Below, in pieces: positions 17,183-23,961 of a DNA stretch of 64,000 nt. Numbering within the stretch: the first letter of the stretch is position 1; every line of letters starts with the position of its first letter. The DNA is from Candidatus Merdiplasma excrementigallinarum (GTDB lineage: Bacteria; Bacillota; Clostridia; Lachnospirales; Lachnospiraceae), in assembly GCA_018713435.1 (NCBI GenBank), contig DVOS01000040.1, positions 1 to 64,000 on the forward strand, given 5' to 3'. The notes under the pieces were generated by a model. It searched no databases. It was given only the letters and a program-made list of their open reading frames with translations, and was not told where the DNA came from. A program made the position numbers and the translations under genes.

Positions 17183-18475
17183 ATGGAACAGTACATTATT
17201 AAGGGCGGCAACCCGCTGGTTGGCGAAGTAGACATCAGCGGAGCGAAAAATGCGGCTCTGGGTATTCTGGCTGCGGCTATTATGACGGATGAGACGGTCC
17301 TGATTGAAAACCTGCCGGATGTAAAGGATATTAATGTGATGTTGGAGGCCATGGCAGGCATTGGCGTAAAGGTGGAGCGTATTACCCGCCATGCGGTGAT
17401 GCTCAACAGCTCCATGATCGGCGGCGTCAGCGTGGACTATGAATATATCAAAAAAATCAGAGCCTCTTACTATCTGCTGGGCGCTCTTCTGGGGAAATAT
17501 AAGAAAGCAGAGGTGCCTCTGCCCGGCGGCTGCAATATCGGAAGCCGCCCCATTGATCTTCATCTGAAGGGCTTTAAGGCTCTGGGTGCCCATGTGTCCA
17601 TCCGCAACGGTTCTATCTGCGCGGAAGCGGATCACCTGCGGGCCAGCCATATTTATCTGGATACGGTTTCCGTGGGAGCGACCATCAATATTATGATGGC
17701 AGCCGCTATGGCGGAAGGCCGCACGATTATTGAGAACTGCGCCAGAGAACCCCATGTGGTGGACGTGGCCAACTTTTTGAACAGCATGGGCGCCAACATC
17801 AAGGGCGCCGGTACGGATGTGATCCGTATCCGTGGCGTGGAAAAACTGCACGCCACCGAGTATTCCATCATTCCCGATCAGATTGAGGCGGGCACCTTTA
17901 TGTTTGCGGCTGCCGCCACCAAGGGGGATGTGATGGTGAAGAACGTAATTCCCAAACATCTGGAAGCTACTTCGGCCAAACTGCTGGAGATCGGCTGCGA
18001 GGTGGAAGAATTTGACAGCGCTGTGAGAGTTGTGGCCTCCAAGCGTCTGACCTGCACCAATGTAAAGACCCTTCCCTATCCCGGTTATCCCACGGATATG
18101 CAGCCCCAGATCGGTGTGGCCCTGGCCTTGGCCTCCGGCACCAGCATCGTGACGGAGAGCATTTTTGAGAACCGGTTTAAGTATATGGATGAACTGGCCC
18201 GCATGGGAGCTGTGGCCAAGGTAGAAGGAAATACCGCCATCATTACGGGCGTGGAAAAGCTGACGGGAGCGAGAGTCAGCGCGCCGGATCTGAGAGCGGG
18301 AGCGGCCCTGGTGATTGCAGGACTGGCTGCTGAAGGCATTACCGTTGTGGATGACATTGTCTATATCCAGCGTGGATATGAAAACTTTGATGAGAAGCTG
18401 AGGAGCCTGGGAGCTGAGATCCAGAAGATTAACAGCGAAAAGGAAGCTCAGAAGTTCCGCCTGCTAGTGGGATGA
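17183..18475 (+). CDS. murA: UDP-N-acetylglucosamine 1-carboxyvinyltransferase
   Basis: Catalyses the first committed step of peptidoglycan synthesis, adding enolpyruvate from PEP to UDP-GlcNAc. The 430-residue protein shows the EPSP-synthase-like fold with GAKNAALGILAAAI (substrate lysine and asparagine) and the flexible loop LPGGCNIGSRPIDLH, with the fosfomycin-target cysteine at C117. Later motifs include YPTDMQPQ and FENRFKYMDELARMGA. AGAGGTG lies before the ATG. It has its own promoter and a long terminator. Confidence 0.96.
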   Translation: MEQYIIKGGNPLVGEVDISGAKNAALGILAAAIMTDETVLIENLPDVKDINVMLEAMAGIGVKVERITRHAVMLNSSMIGGVSVDYEYIKKIRASYYLLGALLGKYKKAEVPLPGGCNIGSRPIDLHLKGFKALGAHVSIRNGSICAEADHLRASHIYLDTVSVGATINIMMAAAMAEGRTIIENCAREPHVVDVANFLNSMGANIKGAGTDVIRIRGVEKLHATEYSIIPDQIEAGTFMFAAAATKGDVMVKNVIPKHLEATSAKLLEIGCEVEEFDSAVRVVASKRLTCTNVKTLPYPGYPTDMQPQIGVALALASGTSIVTESIFENRFKYMDELARMGAVAKVEGNTAIITGVEKLTGARVSAPDLRAGAALVIAGLAAEGITVVDDIVYIQRGYENFDEKLRSLGAEIQKINSEKEAQKFRLLVG

Positions 18476-18518
18476 GAAATAAAGCGGCAGAGACTGCCGC
18501 GGCATGACAGAGAGAAGG

Positions 18519-18578
18519 CTCTGCTTCCGGAGTGTTTGTCCGATGCAAGATACAAACACCCCGGAAGCAGAGTTTTTT
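18519..18578 (+). terminator. Long terminator after murA
   Basis: 21-nt arms (18519-18539 and 18552-18572) pair with one mismatch, then TTTTTT. A small hairpin CGGCAG/CTGCCG lies just upstream. Confidence 0.9.
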
Positions 18579-18644
18579 AATCTGGCGCGGGGACAAAAAG
18601 AGAGGTATCTTAGCTTTGGCTATGGAAAGTAAAGGAGAGCAGGC

Positions 18645-21605
18645 ATGAGCTGGTCATGGAAAACAAAACCAAGAAGCATAATCAGAACTGTTCAGTGGTT
18701 TCCCTGTTTTGCCAGGCTGGAAGGGGAGAACTGGAATCAGAAATCCGACAGCGTCAGCCGGCGGGACGGGAAAGCAGTGCATCCGATACGGCGGACTTAT
18801 ATTTATGATGCCCACAGGGATGAGGATTCTTGGCTTTCCACTGTCTCTGCCAGAGAGTATCTGTCGGGGAAAAAGGACCTGAAAGAAACAGAAGCTAACG
18901 GCAGAATGGATAAAGGCGCTTTTGAATTTTTCGGTTTTGGCTATGTAAAAACCAGCGGAGAGATCGCGGTGACAGAAATGGGACGCCGAATCGTTCAGAA
19001 ACTGTTTGATGATGAGGATTATCTGAAACAGCTTCTGAAACTGCGCCTGCCCAATTATACATACGAACCGTGGGAAATGAAAAAAGGCCATTTTGTGTTT
19101 CCTTTTCAGCTGGTGCTGAAGGCGTTTCGGGAATTTGAAAGTTTAAACCGCAGTGAGCTGGCGCTGCTGTTTGGTTGTGATGATTCGGGACAAACAGATT
19201 CGGCGATAAAAGCCATACGCTGCTTTAAAGAGGCGTACGCAGAACTGGAAAACAAGAATGATACAGAGAAAGTAAAAAAACTGTTTGCCAAGGTGTATAA
19301 GGCACATTACGGCGCTATGCAGAACCAGGCGGACAGTTACTATGAATATGCGGAGGCTTTCTCCAGATCCCTAGTCTACACGGGTCTGTTTTCTGTTTCT
19401 GGCCGGAGCATTGCCTCTAAGCTGAGAGTGGCGGTTCATTCCGCTGAGAAGGTAAAGATGCTACAGGAAAAATATATATTTTCCTGGCCCCGGACTTTTG
19501 CGGATCTGGATGATTATATGGCATGGTTTGGCAGCTGCGCCGGTGTATCCCTGCCCTGGGAGAAACCGAATGAGCGCAGGATCATCATTTTGTCGAAAGC
19601 AAGGCTGCTTCTGGAGCAGGAGCAGAAGGAAGGAGCTGGGCTTTCCAGAGAGAGAATCCGGGAAATTATAGATCTGGCGTCTTCCACGGAAAAGGTAGAG
19701 GAACTGAAGGATTATGAGACGATCCTGAGCAATGCGATTGCATCCCGGAATGAAGAATACTTTATTCGGGTACAGTCTAAGACCGGAGAGGAGCGTCAGG
19801 CAATTTTAGACCGCTTTTCTAATATTTTGGATAATGATGATATGAGCGCGCTCTGGCTGGAAGTGAATACATGGAAGTCTTTAATTGCGGTAAATGGCCG
19901 CCATAAAGTGAAACGGAACTTCCGGATTGAGGAAGATTTGACGCCTAAAAGCTTTGCCCCCGGCGTGGGAAATACACCGGATATGGAAGTTTATGGGGAT
20001 AACTTTGTCATTGTGCCGGAAGTGTCTTTGATGACCGGGGTACGCCAGTGGGAGCATGAGGGCTCCAGTGTGATCGACCATGTGCTGGAGTTTATACGGG
20101 AATATGGAAACAGGCGGGTTCTGGGGCTGTTTCTTTCTTCCCGTATACATCATCGGACGATGTGGCAGTTTTTCGTTTTAAACCGTGAAAGCTGGATGGG
20201 AGCGCCTGTGCCGGTGATCCCCCTTACAATTAAACAGTATAAGGCGGTTCTGTCCTATCTCTACCGGAAAGAAGGGAGCATGGAGGATCTGGAGAAGCTT
20301 CTGGAGAAAATGACGGAAAAGGCTTATCAGTGCGGGAATTATCAGGAGTGGGAAAAATGTATAGACGCCTGCATTCCGGAGTGGATGGAGGAGACTGATC
20401 GGATGCGGCGGGAAAAAGGCAGCATGCGGGCCCGGGAGGAGAGACTGGCGCCGCTTCTGAAATATCCGGGCGGAAAGGAAAAAGAACTGAAATATATTCT
20501 CCCCAGCCTGCCCCAAGGCTGCCGGGACTATTATGAACCCTTTGTGGGAGGCGGCGCGGTGTACTTTGCCGTCCGGGCCGGCCGCAGCTTTATCAATGAC
20601 AAATCTACGGAGCTGGCGAGCCTGTACCGCATGGTGCAGAAACAGAATCCGGAATTTCTGCGGAAAGCCTGGGAGATGGAGCACTGCTGGGAAACGCTGA
20701 ACCGGGTCACGGCAGACTGTATGGAGGAACTGACGGGTATTTACACGGATTGCCGAAAAAAGAGCGCAAAAACGTTGGGACGTCTTGCGGATGAGTTCCT
20801 TAAAAGGCGGGGGACAGAATTTGAAGCAGTCATGAAAACCTGCTTTTTGCAGAAGATAGAGGAATTTGTGCCTCAGCTGGGAAAAAGCCTGAAGGACAAG
20901 ATGGAGCGCATGAGAAAGCTGGAGAAGCAGAGGGGGAAATTAAGCGGGGAGGATCTGGTTTTGAACCTGGAGGGAGCGGTAAAAAACGCCGCCTACATCC
21001 ATTTTCGTTCTCTTTATAACCGGACCGGGGAACTTAAGATCGGTGAGCCCCATGCCACGGCCCTGTATTTTTTTATCCGGGAATACTGCTATTCCTCCAT
21101 GTTCCGCTATAACCGGGACGGGAAATTTAACGTGCCCTACGGAGGGATTTCCTATAATAAAAAATTTATGACCAAAAAGATACAGTATTTTCAGGAGAAG
21201 GAACTGGCAGAGCACCTGGCCGGGACGGTTGTGGAAAATCTGGATTTTGAAGAATTTTTCCGAATCCATGAACCGGGAGAAGAAGATTTTGTATTTCTGG
21301 ACCCGCCCTATGACTCGGAGTTTAGCACTTACGCCGGAAACGAATTTGACCGCCGGGACCAGGAGCGGCTTGCCGATTTCCTTCTGAAGCGGTGCCGGGC
21401 CCGTTTTATGCTGGTTATTAAGAATACGGACTTTATCCGATCTCTTTATCCTGAGGGAAAGAAAACGGCGGGAGGCCGGAAACTGTATGTGGGAATGTTT
21501 GATAAAAAGTATGTAGTCAGCTTTCGGGACCGGAATGACAAGTCGGCCCAGCATCTGATGATTACCAATTATCCGCTGCCCTATGAAGCGGAAAGTCCTT
21601 CTTGA
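18645..21605 (+). CDS. Fused AlwI-type restriction endonuclease and D12 adenine methyltransferase
   Basis: A single 986-residue chain that appears to hold a complete restriction-modification system. Residues 1 to about 595 resemble the AlwI/BstNBI family of type IIS nucleases: the LWLEVNTWKSLIAV helix region, then the PD-(D/E)xK-like core with GDNFVIVPEVSLMTGVRQWE, where E459 is the likely catalytic acid. From about residue 602 a D12-class (Dam-like) N6-adenine methylase begins with LLKYPGGKEKELKYIL. It has the AdoMet loop YEPFVGGGAVYF (about 628-640), DPPY at 886-889 and KNTDFIRSLYP. AAAGGAG precedes the ATG. There is no separate methylase, specificity or nickase gene beside it. AlwI itself reads GGATC, which contains GATC; target identity here is inference. 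No stop codon or frameshift separates the halves. Confidence 0.85.
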   Translation: MSWSWKTKPRSIIRTVQWFPCFARLEGENWNQKSDSVSRRDGKAVHPIRRTYIYDAHRDEDSWLSTVSAREYLSGKKDLKETEANGRMDKGAFEFFGFGYVKTSGEIAVTEMGRRIVQKLFDDEDYLKQLLKLRLPNYTYEPWEMKKGHFVFPFQLVLKAFREFESLNRSELALLFGCDDSGQTDSAIKAIRCFKEAYAELENKNDTEKVKKLFAKVYKAHYGAMQNQADSYYEYAEAFSRSLVYTGLFSVSGRSIASKLRVAVHSAEKVKMLQEKYIFSWPRTFADLDDYMAWFGSCAGVSLPWEKPNERRIIILSKARLLLEQEQKEGAGLSRERIREIIDLASSTEKVEELKDYETILSNAIASRNEEYFIRVQSKTGEERQAILDRFSNILDNDDMSALWLEVNTWKSLIAVNGRHKVKRNFRIEEDLTPKSFAPGVGNTPDMEVYGDNFVIVPEVSLMTGVRQWEHEGSSVIDHVLEFIREYGNRRVLGLFLSSRIHHRTMWQFFVLNRESWMGAPVPVIPLTIKQYKAVLSYLYRKEGSMEDLEKLLEKMTEKAYQCGNYQEWEKCIDACIPEWMEETDRMRREKGSMRAREERLAPLLKYPGGKEKELKYILPSLPQGCRDYYEPFVGGGAVYFAVRAGRSFINDKSTELASLYRMVQKQNPEFLRKAWEMEHCWETLNRVTADCMEELTGIYTDCRKKSAKTLGRLADEFLKRRGTEFEAVMKTCFLQKIEEFVPQLGKSLKDKMERMRKLEKQRGKLSGEDLVLNLEGAVKNAAYIHFRSLYNRTGELKIGEPHATALYFFIREYCYSSMFRYNRDGKFNVPYGGISYNKKFMTKKIQYFQEKELAEHLAGTVVENLDFEEFFRIHEPGEEDFVFLDPPYDSEFSTYAGNEFDRRDQERLADFLLKRCRARFMLVIKNTDFIRSLYPEGKKTAGGRKLYVGMFDKKYVVSFRDRNDKSAQHLMITNYPLPYEAESPS

Positions 21606-21669: not shown

Positions 21670-23961
21670 ATGATTAAATTATATGACGGCGGCGTTTACC
21701 TGGTGAACGGCACAGATATTGTGGAAGATGGCCGGGATGCGGCTGCGGTTCTGACACAGAAAACAGGAAGCGCGCCCGCAAAGGAGGAAGCGGCGAAAGA
21801 GACGATTGCCTACTCCATTCTGAAGTCCCATAACACTTCAGGAAACATGGAAAAGCTGAAAATTAAGTTTGACAAGCTGACTTCCCATGATATTACTTTT
21901 GTAGGGATTATCCAGACGGCCAGAGCGTCAGGCCTGGAAAAGTTTCCCATTCCCTATGTGCTGACCAACTGCCACAACTCCCTGTGCGCTGTGGGCGGCA
22001 CCATCAATGAAGATGACCATATGTTTGGCTTAAGCTGCGCCAAGCGGTACGGCGGCGTGTATGTGCCCCCTCATCAGGCGGTGATCCATCAGTACGCCAG
22101 AGAGATGCTGGCCTGCGGCGGCCAGATGATTCTGGGTTCGGACTCCCATACCCGCTACGGAGCTTTGGGCACCATGGCTATGGGAGAGGGAGGACCGGAA
22201 CTGGTGAAACAGCTCCTGTCCCAGACCTATGATATCAATATGCCCGGCGTGATCGGCATTTACCTGACCGGCTCTCCCGCAAAGGGAGTGGGCCCTCAGG
22301 ACGTGGCCCTGGCTATTATCGGAGCCGTATTCGGAAACGGGTATGTAAACAATAAGGTGATGGAGTTTGTGGGGCCGGGCGTTTCCAATCTGAGCGCGGA
22401 TTTCCGCATCGGCGTGGACGTGATGACCACGGAGACTACCTGTCTGTCCTCCATCTGGAGAACGGACGACACCATAAAAGAGTTCTATGAGATTCACGGC
22501 AGAAGCGGCGATTATAAAGAACTGAATCCGGGACCTGTGGCCTACTACGACGGCATGGTCTATGTGGATCTGGATCAGGTGAAACCCATGATCGCCATGC
22601 CCTTCCATCCCAGCAATACCTACACCATCGAGGAACTGAAGGCCAATCTGGCGGATATACTGGACGATGTGGAGAAACGGGCCAGAGTGAGTCTGGATGG
22701 AGCCGTGGACTTTACCCTGAAGGATAAGGTACATAACGGACAGCTCTATGTGGACCAGGGGATTATTGCCGGATGTGCCGGCGGCGGCTACGAAAACATC
22801 TGTGACGCGGCGGATATTCTGCGGGATAAATTCATCGGCAGCGATGAGTTCACGCTGAGCGTTTATCCGGCCAGCACACCTATTTATATGGAACTGGCGA
22901 AAAACGGAAGGCTGGCAGACCTGATCCGGTCCGGCGCCGTGGTGAAGACTGCTTTCTGCGGCCCCTGCTTCGGCGCGGGTGACACTCCGGCCAACAACGG
23001 TTTCAGTATCCGTCATTCCACCAGAAACTTCCCCAACCGGGAGGGTTCCAAGCTCCAGAGCGGACAGATTGCCTCCGTGGCGCTGATGGACGCCCGTTCC
23101 ATCGCGGCTACAGCTGCCAATAAGGGCTATCTGACAGCCGCGACTGAGATGGATACGGAATTTACGCATCCGGCCTACTTCTTCGACAGCAGTATCTATG
23201 CCAACCGGGTATTTGACAGCAAAGGCGCGGCGGATCCCACGGTGGAGATCAAGATGGGGCCCAACATCAAAGACTGGCCCGCTATGTGCGAACTGCCGGA
23301 AAACCTGATTCTGAAAGTGGTTTCCGAGATTCATGATCCGGTAACCACCACAGACGAGCTGATCCCCTCCGGCGAGACCTCCTCTTACCGCTCCAATCCG
23401 CTGGGACTGGCAGAATTTACTCTTTCCAGAAAGGATCCCGCCTATGTGGGACTGGCGAAAGAGGTGCAGAAGGGTCAGAAAGCGCTGGAGGCAGGAGAAG
23501 ATCCGGTGAAGGCTCTTCCGGAGCTGGCTTCTGTGCTGAATGCAGTGAGAGCCGCTTATCCGGAGGTAAATGAAAAGAATATGGGCATCGGTTCCACCAT
23601 CTTTGCGGTGAAGCCCGGAGACGGTTCTGCCAGAGAGCAGGCGGCTTCCTGCCAGAAGGTGCTGGGCGGCTGGGCCAACATTGCCAACAGCTACGCCACC
23701 AAGCGGTACCGCTCCAACCTGATCAACTGGGGTATGCTGCCCTTCCTGATTCCGGAAGGAGATCTGCCTTTTGCCAACCACGATTATCTGTTCATTCCCG
23801 GCATCCGCCAGGCAGTGAAGGATAAAGCGTCTCAGGTAAAAGCCTGGGTGGTGAAAGACGGAGGCATGAAGGAGTTCGTGCTGAACCTGGGGGAGATGAC
23901 GGACGATGAGCGCCAGATTATTCTGGACGGCTGTCTGATCAATTATAACCGGGTGAAATAG
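21670..23961 (+). CDS. Aconitase-family hydratase
   Basis: A 763-residue iron-sulfur hydro-lyase of the aconitase superfamily, closest in layout to the stand-alone hydratases such as YbhJ and clostridial enzymes of similar length. Likely cluster cysteines are in [12 protein letters not shown] and [13 protein letters not shown]. Substrate-site motifs [20 protein letters not shown] and [15 protein letters not shown] are present. The swivel domain is at the C terminus. Citrate/isocitrate interconversion is the default guess, but the subfamily is not assayed well enough to be sure. GCGGAGG precedes the ATG. A strong terminator follows. Confidence 0.82.

Follow-up and report, generated by a model that had tools for sequence, protein, structure and literature searches.

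The 64,000-nucleotide stretch of Candidatus Merdiplasma excrementigallinarum DNA analyzed here (contig DVOS01000040.1, positions 1 to 64,000; referred to as the window) contains a single gene at 18645..21605 that joins an AlwI-type restriction nuclease to a Dam-like methylase on one protein chain. We predict, with a probability of about 0.72, that this 986-residue protein, which consists of an AlwI/BspD6I-type nuclease, a short linker, and a Dam-like D12 methylase, represents a self-contained restriction-modification enzyme that cuts unmethylated asymmetric sites containing GATC and methylates both of their strands. The sequence itself shows both domains with their catalytic residues, three diverged proteins that share the fusion, and a kinship with two-gene systems in which the nuclease gene (R) precedes the methylase gene (M). 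All window features whose coordinates are given below lie on the plus strand.

One frame encodes an AlwI-type nuclease and a Dam-like methylase

The frame of the gene begins with the ATG at 18645 and the stop codon ends at 21605; its 986 codons contain no internal stop, in agreement with the uninterrupted frame reported in a preliminary description of this DNA. An AAAGGAG ribosome-binding site (18631-18637) is located 7 bases 5′ of the ATG, and the start also fits the N-terminal consensus of standalone relatives, MSWxWxTKPRSI. A search against Pfam placed RE_AlwI (PF09491) on residues 97-535 (123.2 bits, cut-off of 23.1, E value of 1.8e-35) and MethyltransfD12 (PF02086) on the C-terminal part (113.4 bits, cut-off of 22, E value of 1.9e-32), and both scores exceed the curated cut-offs of the profiles. 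The NCBIfam model for Dam, TIGR00571, exceeded its cut-off as well (142.7 versus 114.85). Furthermore, PADLOC matched the N-terminal half to Type II nicking/restriction enzyme models and the C-terminal half to Type II methylase models, while a scan against PHROGs returned five families for the methylase half, annotated as methylase or unknown, and no match for the nuclease half. The motif PEVSLM starts at residue 458, and the motifs YPGGKEK (607), FVGGG (633), and DPPY (886), on which the preliminary description had based its methylase assignment, were all located in the C-terminal half. With both profiles above their cut-offs and catalytic residues kept in both parts, the earlier assignment of an AlwI-type nuclease and a Dam-like methylase to one chain stands.

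The nuclease half (residues 1-580; 18645..20384) comprises an N-terminal DNA-recognition part and a C-terminal cleavage part of the PD-(D/E)xK type with one cleavage site, and its overall fold is BspD6I-like. Alignment to N.BspD6I predicts an active site formed by E406, D446, E459, V460, and E472 (19860..20060), the last three of which correspond to residues that we take to be labelled E469, V470, and E482 in N.BspD6I. All five are invariant across the 53 chosen sequences of alignment A4, which contains the window protein (P0001) and 52 of the 120 listed matches from the nuclease search, and the loss of catalytic residues, named in the preliminary description as a possible objection, is therefore not seen. 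E406 and D446 correspond to E418 and D456, and Nt.BspD6I is deficient in catalysis when either of these two is changed to alanine (E418A, D456A; PMC6261011). Alignment A3, in which R-only, M-only, and fused rows were combined, was dropped, as the M-only rows apparently stood on nuclease columns, and alignments A4 and A5 were used instead.

The D12 methylase half (residues 594-986; 20424..21602) carries motif I, FVGGG, at residues 633-637 (20541..20555) and motif IV, DPPY, at residues 886-889 (21300..21311); the F and GGG of motif I and the entire DPPY are invariant in the 17 sequences of alignment A2. The same holds, in 17 of 17 sequences, for Y816, M819, R821, P831, and Y837 of the target-recognition block (residues 816-837; 21090..21155). 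By sequence, this block can be aligned to Dam and DpnM, both of which are GATC methylases, with base-contact roles presumed for the Dam residues; the stretch is unaligned by sequence in another D12 structure, 7m6b. Compared with Dam and DpnM, which are likewise D12 (alpha-class) adenine methylases, the methylase half is approximately 100-110 residues longer, contains a long helical insert, and is placed C-terminally to a nuclease.

Among the matches listed, two other protein clusters carry the fusion

To place the fusion among known proteins, 5.8 billion proteins were searched, and the 7996 candidates sharing most words with the query were scored. Among the best 120 listed of 1001 matches, both domains were present in only two, P0002 (1014 amino acids [aa]; a cluster of 11 sequences) and P0003 (1108 aa), and the other 118 were nuclease-only proteins of 581-627 aa. 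In the multiple alignment, P0002 and P0003 are 74% and 75% identical to P0001, respectively, and conservation between the three fusions is about the same for the nuclease half as for the methylase half (74-76%). A second search, with the nuclease part of P0003 as the query and a length rule admitting proteins of about 609 aa or more, scored about 8000 candidates and returned 13 proteins, of which only P0002 and P0003 carried a D12 domain. The preliminary description had proposed to count the carriers of the fusion; among the matches listed, the count is two further protein clusters besides P0001, and since these carry the same fusion, it represents more than a chance event. The DNA encoding P0002 was not found in two genome searches covering 397 and 395 genomes. 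Across 398 sampled genomes of the phylum, PF09491 was detected in seven, with an open frame of 990 in the fusion's own genome and of 574-687 in the six others.

A search with the methylase half among long proteins, for which the best 120 of 835 matches were listed, yielded P0002 and P0003, 116 proteins with a beta-class methylase domain (PF01555), and two others, P0123 and P0124; the length filter of this search favours proteins with an extra beta-class domain. P0124 (629 aa) combines a D12 methylase with an HNH nuclease domain and P0123 (579 aa) combines one with a serine-resolvase domain, and both are possibly further odd fusions of D12 methylases.

The linker of P0001 spans 13 aa (residues 581-593; 20385..20423), compared with 42 and 75 aa in P0002 and P0003. 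Within it, a possible internal start (20387..20405) consists of GGAGGAG standing nine bases 5′ of an in-frame ATG at codon 587. The predicted pairing with the anti-Shine-Dalgarno sequence amounts to −10.1 kcal/mol, compared with −9.6 kcal/mol at the true gene start, and pairing as strong as this was found for 59 of the 1186 plus-strand ATGs of the window and for 3 of 57 in-frame starts. Judging from these letters, initiation at codon 587 could yield a free methylase. P0002 and P0003 have no methionine at this place, and a valine stands at the start of their conserved block.

The fusion probably descends from a two-gene system

The unfused relatives of the protein point to its origin. We fetched 20 genome loci of the fusion's nuclease clade, and in 17 of them a relative of the fusion's methylase adjoins the nuclease gene. 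In six loci (L043, L044, L045, L055, L056, and L059) the order is R then M, and in the five that were measured (all but L056) a spacer of 71-124 bp separates the two genes. Two further genomes of the Lachnospiraceae type, G698 and G616, also have adjacent genes in the order R then M. The order is reversed in 11 loci, including one contig-end fragment, two frame-broken loci, and one deletion chimera. The remaining three lack an adjoining methylase: L046 ends soon after the nuclease gene, the nuclease of L054 is broken, and that of L042 is intact and stands alone. These data bear on the earlier statement that known AlwI-family enzymes have separate methylases: the unfused relatives do have methylase genes of their own, mostly beside the nuclease gene, but the methylases of AlwI itself are joined to each other. 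The closest counterparts, the R-then-M pairs of L043, L044, L045, and L059 (Lachnospiraceae, with L043 labelled Eubacteriales), share 54-62% identity with the fusion in the nuclease and 54-59% in the methylase, but consist of two genes and a spacer instead of a single gene.

The three fusions formed one clade in both the R tree and the M tree, with a Shimodaira-Hasegawa-like approximate likelihood ratio test (SH-aLRT) value of 100 in each. In the R tree this clade lies within a 19-row group (SH-aLRT of 97) whose members of known order, apart from L042, are all R then M. The trees were built by quick searches from chosen rows (30 for R and 34 for M) with SH-aLRT as the sole support measure, and long branches were flagged in both; the R tree omits L053 (chimera), L054 (broken nuclease), and L056, and the M tree omits L047 (the end fragment), L053, and L056, as well as L042, L046, and L054, which have no neighbouring methylase. 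Because the fusions constitute one clade inside an R-then-M group, it is likely that a single fusion event took place, in which an R-then-M pair lost its stop codon and spacer.

In G004, a genome of the same genus, an intact nuclease gene (L042:6001-7776) and a methylase gene (L062:6773-7939) whose product is 59% identical to the methylase half are located on different large contigs and apparently constitute an unlinked restriction-modification pair. The methylase gene lies on a 146-kb contig, where, as judged by eye, a symporter-like gene precedes it and a 209-aa frame on the opposite strand and a glutamate-synthase-like gene follow it. G004 is a draft with 3% estimated contamination, and the unlinked placement could be due to a binning error.

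Two kinds of irregular loci were observed among the relatives. Two Bacillota assemblies that are related to each other have an intact nuclease gene with a frame-broken methylase gene next to it (L048:4858-5986 and L058:1061-2191); the break is at the same place in both, in motif I (FVGGG), and may represent decay, a shared loss, or a frameshift signal. In a Treponema assembly, a 732-codon frame (L053:5305-7503) joins the first part of a methylase, without DPPY, to a nuclease lacking its first 88 residues; this frame is a deletion chimera in the M-then-R order.

Proposed mode of action and target site

We infer two activities for the fusion protein, cutting and methylation, by which it would mark its host's own DNA and cut unmarked foreign DNA without a partner protein. 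Each chain has two distinct modules for reading DNA, one being the N-terminal part, which is BspD6I-like, and the other the recognition block that belongs to the methylase. If the methylase reads a palindromic core (GATC), a single methylase would protect both strands, and two chains would presumably unite for the double-strand cut, by analogy with reports on AlwI and FokI. Because its two reading modules are separate, the fusion is to be seen as two complete enzymes tethered in a fixed 1:1 ratio and not as an integrated machine. The fixed ratio also means that the methylase would have no head start over the nuclease. The same genome has a second Dam-like D12 gene directly after greA (G000:C4:35961-37082; L002:1507-2661), which probably helps the host to survive without such an advance of the methylase. 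Its product is 45% identical to the fusion's methylase and has the same recognition-block residues, and no nuclease gene was seen within 1.5 kb on either side. The greA-linked gene is common in the genus: a D12 gene adjoins greA in 9 of the 10 same-genus loci examined, including this one, with two further D12 places (in G004 and G008) outside the count. The possible internal start at codon 587 may be of help to the host as well.

Thirteen loci have an intact D12 gene, and at 11 of them no second DPPY-type methylase was found in the fetched DNA. Nucleases of this clade therefore usually make do with one methylase, in keeping with a target that is palindromic. The idea, put forward in the preliminary description, that one GATC methylase could protect GGATC on both strands is also expressed in a review (PMC4081073), and the 11 loci lend it further weight. 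Our best guess for the methylase site, based on the recognition block, is GATC; GGATC as the nuclease site would be a guess by analogy, since Dam-type methylases are stated to protect AlwI sites (PMC4081073).

Several observations weigh against the reading of the fusion as a balanced GATC-directed enzyme. An extra beta-class methylase is encoded at 2 of the 13 intact loci (L052 and L061, both Bacteroidota). Close relatives of the methylase half precede a TdeIII-type nuclease, and other relatives are joined to, or located near, beta-class methylases, which renders GATC uncertain. The D12 half of MhoVII adds CATC methylation only (PMC12898733). The observed/expected ratios in the window were 1.00 for GATC and 1.05 for GGATC, which neither supports nor excludes these sites, and 0.76 for GAGTC, so site avoidance is uninformative on specificity. 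When the Eco29kI enzymes were fused by engineering, the product cut DNA faster than it methylated it in vitro and protected 100-fold less well against phage (PMC3039593), and hence the present fusion need not be well balanced either. Finally, the full-length structural model reached a predicted template modeling score (pTM) of 0.59, with the methylase half poorly predicted because only three rows cover it; the model was used neither for that half nor for the domain arrangement.

Some of these points would also be explained by an active enzyme with a site other than GATC, whose methylase would cover just one strand of an asymmetric sequence (for example, SfaNI- or MlyI-like) and leave the second strand to the greA-linked D12 methylase or to some other enzyme. 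We regard this as unlikely, although it is the most serious competitor. Several specificities, including GGATC, GAGTC, and the SfaNI-like GCATC, are described within the AlwI family (PMC9799307), and the CATC-only D12 half of MhoVII, the second D12 gene of the genome, the beta-class neighbours at two loci, and the beta-class domains in 116 of the 120 listed long proteins, even with a filter that favours them, are compatible with division of labour between two methylases. Nevertheless, the 11 loci without a second DPPY-type methylase argue against it, as does the recognition block, which aligns by sequence with Dam and DpnM but not with 7m6b. Less probable still is that one half has lost all or nearly all of its activity, which would leave the protein to act solely as a methylase or, like N.BspD6I, to nick DNA at specific sites. 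Among relatives of solved structure the nearest is N.BspD6I/BstNBI, which does no more than nick DNA when its small subunit is absent (PMC4081073), and a search of the fusion's own genome (73% complete) with the whole protein recovered the fusion and the greA-linked D12 gene only, with no second AlwI-type cleavage domain; on the other hand, the compared active-site residues are kept in all 53 chosen sequences, and both halves are conserved to about the same degree among the three fusions. That the single frame is an artefact, created when a sequencing or assembly error removed the stop codon of an ordinary pair, is extremely improbable. The likely parent with its short spacer and an assembly of 78 contigs would allow it, but P0002 (11 sequences) and P0003 have diverged and are fused too, and because the frame was kept while the linker varied (13, 42, and 75 aa), an assembly error is no explanation. 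We thus rejected an assembly or read-through artefact and retain the self-contained enzyme as the preferred interpretation.

A more elaborate version of that interpretation combines the internal start with the greA-linked gene. The one gene would give rise to two products, the complete fusion with both activities and a separate methylase initiated at codon 587, with the result that methylation runs ahead of cleavage, and the greA-side methylase would serve as a standing antidote that allowed fusion here and drift to unlinked loci in the same-genus genome. We consider this combination rather doubtful; if it were true, Type IIC enzymes would originate in hosts that an orphan Dam already protects.

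Relation to known systems and implications

The nuclease half shares its profile (PF09491), active-site residues, and N.BspD6I fold with the AlwI/BspD6I (BstNBI) Type IIS nucleases; the described members of that family are separate proteins, unlike the fusion. The two methylases of AlwI, one for each strand, are joined to each other in one chain and not to the nuclease (PMC4081073). Consequently, the fusion is not simply AlwI fused to its methylase: its chain has one D12 domain, and the other D12 gene of the genome is separate. The nearest known kind, to which the preliminary description makes no reference, are the combined Type IIC enzymes, and the present protein likewise carries nuclease and methylase domains on one chain. 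In Type IIG enzymes, one target-reading domain serves both activities. Type IIG enzymes are defined by a gamma-class methylase with an NPPY/F/W motif (PMC4081073), and the methylase here is of the D12 class with DPPY. Most Type IIC enzymes have a gamma-class methylase. BtgZI is a combined chain with an alpha-class methylase, as is the fusion, but its methylase is placed first and its nuclease last (PMC4081073), the reverse of the order found here, where in addition the nuclease has its own recognition part. The laboratory fusion RM.Eco29kI, made from separate R and M genes, resembles the present protein in that a complete nuclease is tethered to a complete methylase, and both activities survived (PMC3039593); however, it is an engineered Type IIP enzyme with a C5-cytosine methylase, whereas the fusion described here is natural, AlwI-type, and Dam-like.

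By its sequence features the protein is likely a Type IIC/IIS enzyme that needs no partner and whose single chain carries both of its separate DNA-reading modules. Combined Type IIC enzymes are already known; what appears to be new is that an AlwI-type nuclease is fused, in the order R then M, to a Dam-like methylase. No report of a natural AlwI-type/D12 fusion was found among the titles and abstract openings listed from the open literature, some of the lists being cut short, a scope that does not extend to REBASE and most subscription papers. The fusion is likely to illustrate the way in which one class of combined enzymes originates, which has been argued on the basis of an engineered fusion. 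In this one enzyme family the two genes occur naturally as neighbours, as a pair divided between contigs, and in fused form, with two of these states in one genus, which makes the origin testable. The family also includes a nuclease clade with a single Dam-like methylase at 11 of 13 intact loci, compared with two in the known AlwI system. A system that consists of one gene and has two reading modules would make a compact tool and would offer a way to study how cells survive a fixed 1:1 dose of nuclease and methylase.

Genomic setting

The fusion gene is flanked by a murA-type gene on the left (17183..18475) and an aconitase-type gene on the right (21670..23961), both named by eye. A hairpin followed by a T-run (18519..18578), read by eye without a terminator scan, follows the murA-type gene, and the fusion gene is therefore likely its own transcription unit. 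In G004, G006, and G008, the murA-type gene directly precedes the aconitase-type gene without a fusion gene in between. Homology to these empty sites breaks off at 18456-18479 on the left and returns at 21600-21601 (G006 and G004) or 21669 (G008), so that the fusion gene looks like a clean insert between the two genes. The two are neighbours in 3 of the 13 other aconitase loci of the genus, and in the other 10 no murA was seen within the flanking sequence covered. Regarding a phage or plasmid origin, 226 phage and 2040 plasmid records were matched, none of which covers 80% of the query in one place, and no relative of the nuclease was detected among the viral contigs scanned.

Methylases at L004:1492-2655 and L005:1492-2673 are 55-57% identical to the fusion's methylase half and are followed by a TdeIII-type nuclease; of these nucleases, the one in L064 (L064:4235-5041) matched PF09520 with an E value of 4.2e-44, and the other is alike by eye. 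One methylase type may thus serve two unrelated nucleases, AlwI-type and TdeIII-type. Lastly, CTAG is strongly underrepresented in the window, with six sites and an observed/expected ratio of 0.18.
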